From NCBI GenBank assembly GCA_025360015.1, contig JANYCZ010000036.1, positions 62,001 through 126,000 on the forward strand: a DNA stretch of 64,000 nucleotides, given 5' to 3'. The notes beneath the pieces were generated by a model. It saw only the letters and a program-made list of their open reading frames with translations. It was not told the origin of the DNA and did no database searches. Below, one piece after another: positions 25,822 through 48,417 of the stretch (positions within the stretch are counted from its first letter, which is position 1; the number at the start of each line of letters is the position of its first letter). The translations under genes and the position numbers were made by a program. This DNA is from Verrucomicrobiota bacterium (GTDB lineage: Bacteria > Verrucomicrobiota > Verrucomicrobiia > Verrucomicrobiales > Verrucomicrobiaceae).

Positions 25822-25877
25822 GGTGGGTGCGGCGAGAGCGGCGCTGAAGCGCCGCACTCCGGGGACGCTGTCGCGAG
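25822..25877. repeat. Family-D (REP-like) palindrome, copy 1
   Basis: GCGGCGCT-GA-AGCGCCGC (25838-25855) is followed by ACTCCGGGGACGCTGTCGCG. Related to 31705, 38756 and 42400. It lies between the serpin and lysS. Confidence 0.85.
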
Positions 25878-31075: not shown

Positions 31076-31092
31076 GCAACCGGGATGGTTGC
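31076..31092. repeat. Palindrome at the 3' end of the RAYT gene
   Basis: GCAACC-GGGAT-GGTTGC is followed by GCTACTTC. It abuts the RAYT stop (31099-31101). The hairpin-plus-TACTTC layout resembles family A. Confidence 0.7.
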
Positions 31093-31098
31093 GCTACT

Positions 31099-31668
31099 TC
31101 ACTCTGGCTGGAAATCGTCCTCCACTTTTACACGGTCCGTTTTGAATCGTGAGATGGCCTTCAGCATCGCGGGTGAGGTTACGGTTTGGAACCATGCGGC
31201 TGAGCACCATGGGTAATCTCGTGCGACTTCGACCAGACCATGCTTCACCGGATTGTTGTGCGTGTAATTTAATCTCGCGAAATAAGACGTCTGCTGCGTG
31301 AGCAGTGTCTCCCAGTAGTTGTGCCAGACTTTGCGATCTGGGGTGTTGTCGAGCTTGTTTACCCAGACGGACAGGGGGCCGTGCAGGGCGCGAATTAGCT
31401 TTGGGAGTGATGCGGCGTCCTTTGCATCTGGGGGCGTTTTTGCGATGAAGTGGTAGTGATTTGAGAAGATGGCCCACGCTTCGAGCCGCCAGCCGAATTG
31501 GTGAGTGATGGAGAGAAGGCCGCGCTGAAGGACATCGAGGCGGGCGGGGTCGCGGAAGTGGTGCTGCTTGAGATGTGTTGCGGCGGTGATGAAGTAGATG
31601 CCGCTGGCGTCTAGGAGATGCGTGGGAGCGTGGGGCCAGGGTGGGGGCTGGTCTGCGCGGCGAGGCAT
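31099..31668 (-). CDS. REP-associated tyrosine transposase (RAYT, IS200/IS605-like TnpA)
   Basis: The 189-residue protein has the HUH-type His71-Tyr72-His73 (SNHYHFIAK) and a candidate catalytic Tyr135 in RLNYTHNNPVKHGLV, the diagnostic RAYT segment. Length is typical (about 150-220). RAYTs are single-copy housekeeping relatives of Y1 transposases that cut REP hairpins in single-stranded DNA. Hairpins flank it on both sides: family-D at 31705-31762 just upstream of its start and a palindrome at 31076-31092 at its stop. It is not itself bounded by IS ends that I can see. Product is cytoplasmic. Confidence 0.9.
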   Translation of the reverse strand: MPRRADQPPPWPHAPTHLLDASGIYFITAATHLKQHHFRDPARLDVLQRGLLSITHQFGWRLEAWAIFSNHYHFIAKTPPDAKDAASLPKLIRALHGPLSVWVNKLDNTPDRKVWHNYWETLLTQQTSYFARLNYTHNNPVKHGLVEVARDYPWCSAAWFQTVTSPAMLKAISRFKTDRVKVEDDFQPE

Positions 31669-31704
31669 GGGGAGACGGGTACGGAAGACAACCGTGACTT
31701 GTTG

Positions 31705-31762
31705 CCGGTGGGTGTGGCGAAAGCGGTGCTGAAGCACCGCACTCCGAGGACGCTGGCGCGCG
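31705..31762. repeat. Family-D palindrome, copy 2, upstream of the RAYT gene
   Basis: GCGGTGCT-GA-AGCACCGC is followed by ACTCCGAGGACGCTGGCGCG. Compared with copy 1 the stem has compensating base changes (GTGC/GCAC for GCGC/GCGC). Confidence 0.88.
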
Positions 31763-31763
31763 C

Positions 31764-31809
31764 TTGGGTGCTGCGCTGGCGTGCGATTGGGTGCTGCGCT
31801 GGCGCGCGC
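31764..31809. repeat. Two tandem 23-bp units next to a family-D repeat
   Basis: TTGGGTGCTGCGCTGGCGTG (plus CGA) is repeated twice with one change, directly after the family-D tail. The tail's ACGCTGGCGCGCG may be a third partial unit. Confidence 0.75.
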
Positions 31810-38614: not shown

Positions 38615-38995
38615 GAAAACACTGATTTAACACCGCGAGAGATTAGAAAACCGCAGAGAATACCTTCTGAATCAGATCTCTACGGGCAAGCCTGGGAGTG
38701 ACGTGGCTTTCACAGGCCGGGCGGCGAGTTTTGGGCGAAGAGGATTCTTTACCCCGCGAAAGCGGTGCCGCCGATGCAGGCTTGCGCCGTGCATCTCTGT
38801 CACCGCACTCCACGACGCTGTCGCGTTTGCGTGAGTGCCCTCCGGCCTGTAAAACTTACGATTCATGCGCTTAACGGTGTGCCATGCGCGCTGAGATATT
38901 TCCAGATCTGAATGTTCGAGGGGTTGTCTCGGCAGGAAGATTGCTGTTGAAGTGGGGGAAATGATTTTATCTTCACGCCCGTTGTCTGAAGCCGC
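38615..38995. other. 381-bp gap holding a family-D repeat and no recognisable gene
   Basis: Between the small gene and the TIM-barrel gene I see no open frame with family similarity, no RNA gene and no hairpin terminator. The repeat unit at 38756-38831 is the main feature; the rest is mixed sequence including an A/G-rich start. Confidence 0.6.
38756..38831. repeat. Family-D repeat, copy 3, with a larger loop
   Basis: GCGGTG (38762) pairs with CACCGC (38801), enclosing GATGCA (38773) and TGCATC (38790), followed by ACTCCACGACGCTGTCGCG. The arm ends match copies 1 and 2 but the loop is replaced by an extra nested palindrome. Confidence 0.75.
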
Positions 38996-42352: not shown

Positions 42353-42399
42353 AAGCGCGTGGTTGAAAACACGCCAGCAGGCAGTGGCGGCGTTTTGTG

Positions 42400-42437
42400 T
42401 GATTGCGGAGTGCTGCGGAATCAATTCCGCGCTCCAA
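42400..42437. repeat. Diverged family-D-like palindrome
   Basis: GCGGAAT-CA-ATTCCGC (42415-42430) is followed by GCTCCA, matching the stem-loop-plus-CTCC layout of family D but with different arms. It sits between convergent genes. Confidence 0.5.
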
Positions 42438-42445
42438 TTACCCAC

Positions 42446-48315: not shown

Positions 48316-48405
48316 GCCCTTTCAGGGCTCCAGAATGTGATACGGCGGAGCGATGCGATAACCCAGGGCGTTGCCCTGGGCTGCGATAGGTCGCACCTTT
48401 GGTGC
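48316..48405. repeat. Three-hairpin intergenic element (family F)
   Basis: In series: GCCCT-TTC-AGGGC (48316-48328), CCCAGGGC-GTT-GCCCTGGG (48362-48380) and GCACC-TTT-GGTGC (48393-48405). It fills the gap between the cupin and the convergent PSD1 gene. The stems with 3-nt GTT/TTT loops resemble 24360-24436. Confidence 0.8.
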
Positions 48406-48417
48406 TGGGGAATCAAC

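Follow-up and report, generated by a model that had tools for sequence, protein, structure and literature searches.

The window analysed here, a stretch of 64,000 nucleotides, carries a gene for a REP-associated tyrosine transposase (RAYT), the clade of which is common in Verrucomicrobia and probably works with a REP class of its own, with units that pair into putative REPINs (REPIN and REPtron have here the meaning given them in the cited papers). Read on one strand, most units start with an outer mini-hairpin whose loop is C-GNA-G or C-GNNA-G; next come 3-4 spacer bases, the foot GGA[GC]TGC, then the main stem-loop and finally GCTTT. Two inverted units with their feet outward would make up a REPIN of ~166 bp. 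The units associate with this RAYT clade and not with other Y1 proteins, and their main stems differ between RAYT lineages on a near-constant foot.

The RAYT gene and the units of the window

Its motifs and predicted fold mark the gene product as a RAYT/TnpA-REP protein, one of the HUH enzymes, which cut and join single-stranded DNA. The NCBIfam model for the family (NF047646, REP_Tyr_transpos) gives it 86.9 bits against a cut-off of 80; Pfam Y1_Tnp gives 20.5 bits, under the 23-bit cut-off. The protein has the HUH motif NHYH and a single catalytic tyrosine within YTHNNP, and H71, H73 and Y135 are invariant among nine relatives. A profile made from these nine finds E. coli TnpA-REP (4er8) as its best solved match (1.6e-10), and 4er8 also ranks first in a fold search (E 4.6e-7, TM 0.50) run with an AlphaFold model whose quality is moderate (mean pLDDT 64.3). 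The original prediction of a RAYT gene, made from an HYH motif and a tyrosine in YTHNNP, is thus borne out by the open reading frame, the motifs, NF047646 and 4er8. Among the best 80 of 221 relatives the closest are 88, 84 and 82% identical and the next 81%. Prosthecobacter assemblies (L115, L116, L117) are among these closest relatives, along with a Verrucomicrobiaceae assembly (L118), and the host is probably a Prosthecobacter or close to that genus.

Read from a GTG, the frame extends over 31099-31737 on the minus strand, and the alignments of relatives begin at about residue 1-33 of this reading. Translation probably starts at the Met at 31668, which places the unit at 31719-31760 upstream of the gene (Table 1).

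Table 1. Coordinates of the RAYT gene, its unit and related features within the window
Feature	Position	Strand	Basis
Coding sequence of the RAYT (REP-associated tyrosine transposase), read from its first Met (31668)	31099..31668	-	family model, profile, fold
REP unit belonging to the window RAYT, in the order mini-hairpin, spacer, foot, main hairpin, TTTC	31719..31760	-	sequence, folding
Outer mini-hairpin CGC-GCCA-GCG	31751..31760	-	sequence, folding
Foot GGAGTGC; its final GC doubles as base of the main stem	31739..31745	-	
Main hairpin GCGGTGC-TTCA-GCACCGC	31723..31740	-	sequence, folding
Dispersed short-type unit, stem GCGGCGC/GCGCCGC	25834..25875	-	sequence, folding
Dispersed REP-A unit, type flanking the second RAYT (contig 39)	38758..38825	-	
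Degenerate terminal-inverted-repeat-like sequence, 6/23 mismatches, 44 nt past the REP-A tail	38870..38892	+	

This unit, GCGGTGCTGAAGCACCGCACTCC, occurs with 0 mismatches against a chance expectation of 0.00, and corresponds to the repeat that had been placed ahead of the gene at 31705-31762 and called family D. The copy reported at 25822 is also real, as the short-type unit of Table 1, with T-A replaced by C-G on both sides of the stem. A repeat likewise exists near 38756, but it is a longer, different hairpin, here termed REP-A, and not a compensated version of the same stem. The supposed diverged copy at 42400 looks like a member of a different hairpin family, GCGGAGTGCTGCGGA..TCCGC, and the stretch around it is ~86 nt longer than in genome G023. 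As for the palindrome on which the gene was said to end, GCAACC-gggat-GGTTGC at 31076-31092, it exists but has neither foot nor mini-hairpin and is not a REP unit, so that the window RAYT has a unit only on its 5' side; orthologues L064, L065, L067 and L068 show a unit where the window has the palindrome, the foot in L064 being GGATTGC. Family D is not a single repeat: it holds at least two repeat types, which go with two RAYTs, and the sequences at 42400 and 31076 are excluded. The hairpin without its tail is unremarkable, the initial pattern giving 2 matches against a shuffle mean of 0.80; that pattern missed the true units because it specified too long a loop.

Two RAYTs and dispersed units in the host genome

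The host genome searched comprises 6.61 Mb in 79 contigs and gives 23 Y1_Tnp matches. The search for RAYT paralogues and flanking hairpins that had been proposed at the outset uncovered one close paralogue, on contig 39 (C39:108515-109069), 61% identical to the window RAYT and bracketed by REPINs: an inverted pair stands on each side, the two pairs being identical at 164/166 positions. The genome-wide copy count, proposed along with it, returned 57 matches to the tail pattern in 6.6 Mb, the control 0. The window gene thus has the surroundings by which a RAYT/TnpA-REP is recognized, namely REPs that flank the gene and are dispersed elsewhere, since to the 5' unit and the tail matches are added 5 matches of its short perfect hairpin in the host genome. 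The window RAYT has few units of its own; it is the contig-39 paralogue that accompanies the larger family.

At up to 4 mismatches, 60 tail matches divide into 31 of type A (long), 22 of type B and 7 that were set aside. The type-A core has 31 matches in the host, and such cores are present in 8 genomes. When 46 own-genome sources were scanned (<=4 mismatches), 18 inverted pairs and 24 singles were seen, and 15 of the 18 pairs measure 164-168 bp with tags outward, a REPIN-like arrangement. Across 37 genomes the short core gives 28 matches in 8 genomes (reversed control, 1), 22 of them in the six genomes that have an orthologue of at least 72% identity (G000 5, G002 6, G011 1, G012 6, G016 0, G023 4) and the remaining 6 in three genomes without one. 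Genome G012 holds 34 REP-A cores, yet other stems stand beside both of its full-length clade genes (L065, L090). Covariation in REP-A was considered as proof of structure and set aside, as the copies vary too little: it is weak, with 1 of 18 pairs changed on both sides, which was equalled in 60 of 500 shuffles.

Several other arrangements were seen along the way. At 10 other Y1 loci inspected in the host, an inverted word of 12 nt or more is common to the two flanks, a count without a chance control; at L031 this word holds GTAG. Eight host loci (L011-L015, L017, L021, L022) form a multi-copy family with frames of 326-436 aa that have a partial Y1_Tnp match and a long further domain. At L061:1501-1726 and at L091 the unit tail is fused to another hairpin (GGAACCGGAGCG..GCGG, with CCGAAGGGTGAGC) that replaces the usual foot; this is another repeat type sharing the unit tail.

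A RAYT clade across Verrucomicrobia and its probable repeat class

Scanning GTDB species genomes turned up 221 confirmed relatives, and the best 80 entered the analysis. Going by their titles, 71 of these 80 belong to Verrucomicrobia groups; the other nine are titled Hydrogenedentes, BRC1, Kiritimatiellae, Blastocatellia, Pyrinomonadaceae, Lentisphaerae, Proteobacteria, Planctomycetota and Thiosymbion, and some titles may mislead because most of the assemblies are metagenomic. The clade loci number 102 (22 plus the 80 of 221), 95 of them with a script-readable frame, and some genomes, being present in two collections, are counted twice (e.g. L065/L116, with the same flank strings).

A strict unit was defined as GGA[GC]TGC, at least 5 contiguous Watson-Crick pairs and GC-TT, within ~500 nt of a RAYT. 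It stands near 82 of the 95 readable clade RAYTs, on both sides in 65, and is missing at 13; reversed sequence gives 0/95, and the loci of other Y1 proteins 0/32 (31 distinct, L009 being the same as L033). GGA[GC]TGC alone lies near 94/95 clade loci, a motif so short that chance occurrences are expected. Over 742,675 bases of G023 there are 16 strict units, against 3 in the reversed sequence. Lineage independence is limited, since single linkage at 70% identity groups the 95 clade proteins into 8 clusters, two of which hold 88.

SNHYH is found in 77/77 clade loci with a frame matching the search expression, out of the 102 in all. These proteins differ from E. coli TnpA-REP in having Thr in place of H101 (76/77) and R104 (67/77), two residues said, in the sections of PMC6006769 consulted, to take part in GTAG contact. 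Altered guide contacts were accordingly tried as the cause of the changed foot. Arg occupies both equivalent positions in L031, a GTAG-type RAYT, and does so likewise in L080, yet the flanks of L080 read GGAGT[TC]CCGCC; with this counterexample the substitutions are suggestive at most.

The window RAYT lies beside an iron-containing alcohol dehydrogenase gene, with a protein carrying a heavy-metal-associated domain on the other side. The dehydrogenase neighbour is common to 10 clade loci, the heavy-metal-domain neighbour to 8, and both are found at 6. By matching flank strings the 10 dehydrogenase-adjacent loci (L029, L064, L065/L116, L067/L119, L068/L120, L115 and L118) amount to about seven genomes, and in three of these (L065/L116, L067/L119, L118) the RAYT is reversed relative to the dehydrogenase gene. 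A simple explanation would be that the RAYT flips at its site through inversion between the flanking inverted units. A conserved site occupied in both orientations among congeners offers a handle on how a domesticated transposase persists.

Copy number and RAYT presence across genomes

In 24 same-genus genomes a looser tail pattern gives 592 matches, against 21 when read backwards (0-3 per genome), with a range among congeners of 0 to 109. The median is 24.5 matches in the 14 congeners with a clade RAYT and 3.5 in the 10 without; copy number is higher with a clade RAYT (one-sided Mann-Whitney p = 3.3e-4 for the 24 congeners, kinship ignored), the limit for a clade RAYT (E <=1e-40) having been chosen after the search results were known. 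The test gives p = 6.6e-4 for genomes at least 90% complete (13 with, 6 without), p = 4.9e-4 when the host is left out, and p = 2.4e-3 when G005 is recounted as lacking a clade RAYT; G005 has 71 tail matches, but the units beside its clade RAYT (L079, 46% identity) have a different tail.

The genome-wide copies and the higher copy number with a clade RAYT support the original prediction that the RAYT is accompanied by a dispersed cognate repeat. Units confined to the window, or to genomes without any RAYT, would have spoken against it; they are confined to neither, with the exceptions of three congeners that have tail matches and no clade RAYT (G015 20, G018 12, G020 15) and of G034 (same order, other genus, 82% complete), with 31 tail matches and no RAYT match. 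The comparison with other genera covers 13 genomes, among which G025, G028 and G030 have a clade RAYT and no tail matches; at L074, in G025, the units carry a differing tail.

The outer mini-hairpin

The mini-hairpin was defined as a stem of at least 2 bp directly outside the foot, C-G closed around GNA or GNNA. It is present in 174 of 240 distinct units, against a mean of 4.9 and a maximum of 11 in shuffles and 8 in the reverse complement; by locus, 66 of the 82 strict-unit loci (14/15 and 52/67) have at least one. With the loop and closing pair as the only anchor, 179/240 units fit, against 12.5 in shuffles. The loops include GAA (45), GCCA (43), GACA (23), GGCA (18), GGA (10) and GCA (8). 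Both d(C-GNA-G) and d(C-GNNA-G) are unusually stable loops in DNA, and GNRA is the tetraloop form that is stable in RNA.

The pair next to the closing pair covaries. Among 40 types, distinct per protein cluster, this second pair is Watson-Crick in 35 (G-C 26, C-G 9), against 22.4 when permuted, with 0/2000 permutations as high; the third pair is Watson-Crick in 24/40, against 15.7, with 1/2000 as high. Across 53 dispersed host units the last 12 tail positions hold 25 mismatches, and 18 of these affect the two inner loop bases. When five units were folded with DNA energies all beat the shuffle average (z -1.76 to -4.28), and a competing tail pairing was preferred in two.

Mechanism and competing explanations

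In the mechanism that seems likeliest, a unit made single-stranded, for instance during replication, would fold, and the RAYT would read the foot and hairpins of the folded unit, nick near the foot by means of its tyrosine and transfer the REPIN to another single-stranded site. More tentatively, the units could represent a third REP super-family, GGASTGC-tagged, with a dedicated RAYT clade that reads a bipartite substrate, the DNA-type mini-hairpin being one part and the foot with the main hairpin the other; we hold this as a possibility somewhat short of an even chance. Such a substrate would be a mode of recognition undescribed for RAYTs in the sections of the literature consulted.

A rather unlikely alternative, though one with evidence of its own, is that the dispersed REP-A/B pairs of the host spread mainly inside a miniature element of ~320 bp, with terminal inverted repeats of ~23-30 bp and an unrelated transposase, the RAYT being mostly a bystander. 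It is favoured by the outward flanks of host units, 18/60 of which reach a CTTAACCGAGTGCCATTCATGCC-like sequence (<=8/23 mismatches) at 34-59 nt (reversed control, 1/60), by the 22 matches of CTTAACCGAGTGCCATTCATGCC in the host genome (control, 0), some of them beside other hairpins, and by C75:80231, where the G023 orthologue lacks roughly 300 bp that hold a REPIN and ends of this kind. The ends beside many A/B pairs make these pairs the core of a ~320-bp composite, and because many host copies lie inside it a RAYT-driven spread is something we infer; another transposase may have done as much as the RAYT to spread the host family. On the other hand, 42/60 flanks and the two REPINs beside the contig-39 RAYT have no such end, the search identified no transposase owning the ends, and a miniature element leaves the unit flanking of clade RAYTs across genomes unexplained. 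A relic beside L271:2902, with what we take to be IS4-like C-terminal motifs, was tried as owner of the outer repeats and rejected, there being no Pfam match above cut-off. In the empty-site comparison, which used ~743 kb of G023 and five aligned sites, presence or absence was clear only at C75:80231, and base-exact junctions were resolved at none of the five.

The outer mini-hairpin might instead be a mere conserved stretch, such as a double-strand protein site or an ancestral flank, and not a structure used by the RAYT. The invariance of its stem in host REP-A copies (3/3 pairs), its absence from 66/240 units and the folding that is ambiguous in 2/5 all fit such a stretch, which we nevertheless consider improbable, since the G, the A and the closing pair persist across differing loop lengths (3 or 4) and inner bases, and since the second pair covaries. 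Far less probable is that the units act mainly as RNA elements, terminators or mRNA stabilisers, maintained in place by selection. Roles of this kind have been proposed for REPs generally (PMC3733652, in the sections consulted), but the wide range of copy number among congeners, the excess of GNYA over RNA-type GNRA tetraloops (96 vs 13) and a search of Rfam that gave no gathering-level match at the window units all argue the other way.

Relation to known systems

The consulted sections of the 2013 survey (PMC3733652) place most REPs in a GTAG or a CGTC class, with no transposase tied to the CGTC repeats, and report RAYTs whose flanks are either GTAG repeats or long inverted repeats. They also describe Opitutus terrae, of the Verrucomicrobia, as rich in GTAG REPs, so that co-occurrence of RAYT and REP in a PVC genome, put forward earlier as a novelty, was already in print. 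RAYT/TnpA-Y1 subclasses, including 2.8, are defined in PMC6006769, the text of which does not contain 'verrucomicrobi'; the parts played by GTAG and the hairpin were studied in vitro in PMC8266576, and REPs are listed as starting with GTAG or GTGG in PMC2817692, again in the sections consulted. The consulted sections of these four papers describe neither a GGAG foot nor an outer hairpin, 'GGAG' occurs nowhere in the text of either PMC3733652 or PMC2817692, and literature searches for a GGAG-tagged REP or a RAYT mini-hairpin, with both words searched once only, found no paper. Three features look new: the foot, the outer mini-hairpin, and the tie to a single widespread clade.

With the RAYT/TnpA-REP proteins of GTAG REPs (those of E. 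coli, Pseudomonas, Stenotrophomonas and Opitutus terrae) the present system shares the HUH motif, the single tyrosine and the fold, as well as a gene flanked by units on either side, inverted pairing with outward tags and a repeat type tied to the RAYT lineage. The units nevertheless fall outside the GTAG super-family, as the hairpin foot is GGA[GC]TGC and not GT[AG]G, with GCTTT across the stem and a mini-hairpin in most units. By comparison of motifs, subclass 2.8 of Cyanobacteria comes closest among known RAYT subclasses: it has NHYH, W followed by Y or H, and long hairpins, but YIHYNP and canonical GT[AG]G REPs where the present clade has Y[TV]H.N[AP] (PMC6006769, sections consulted).

CGTC REPs, according to the consulted sections of PMC3733652, are likewise non-GTAG and mostly inverted dimers with tags outward, and many units here hold GCGTC in the tail. 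There, however, the CGTC tag is at an 8-9-bp stem, usually with A/T pairs first, and no transposase gene is involved, whereas here GCGTC lies beyond the foot, which is GGASTGC, the stem begins with GC and the units flank RAYT genes of one clade. TIRtrons and TIRYTs, in the same sections, also have a RAYT-like gene flanked by non-GTAG repeats found elsewhere in the genome, but these are long inverted repeats, some with GGGGWSAS, and not hairpin units with a common foot. From IS200/IS605, with which the fold and catalytic motifs are shared, the window RAYT is set apart by 12.6 bits in the NCBIfam IS200 model, the cut-off of which is 55, and by the single close paralogue in the genome.

A non-GTAG class with its own RAYT clade and many stems on a near-constant foot provides a natural series for the study of how RAYTs read their repeats. 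The mini-hairpin yields a simple prediction on single-stranded DNA structure that is testable with oligonucleotides.

Other hairpins and RNA matches

At 48362-48406 the window has a short double hairpin that matches Rfam RF01687, Acido-Lenti-1 RNA, at 40.7 bits (gathering, 37). Similar CCCTGGGCTG hairpins adjoin CTTAACCGAGTGCC ends, so the sequence at 48362-48406 may be a repeat instead of an sRNA. Because of this match, and because some relatives are titled Acidobacteria or Lentisphaerae, the units themselves were considered as Acido-Lenti-1; this was rejected, as 20 hand-picked loci of the 102 in the clade gave just two tRNA matches at the gathering threshold and the printed consensus differs. 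The terminal-inverted-repeat-like CTTAACCGAGTGCCATTCATGCCNGGCAT, at 22 places in the host (e.g. L251, L253, L258, L259), borders several unlike hairpin elements. The hairpin at 42390-42440 of the window, GCGGAGTGCTGCGGAAT..ATTCCGCGCTCC, has a foot-like GGAGTGC at 42407, and its family is also seen at L249, L253, L256, L260 and L265. A similar stem, carrying GTAG (GTTGTAGCGCGGAATTCC), flanks the Y1 locus L020 on contig 48.
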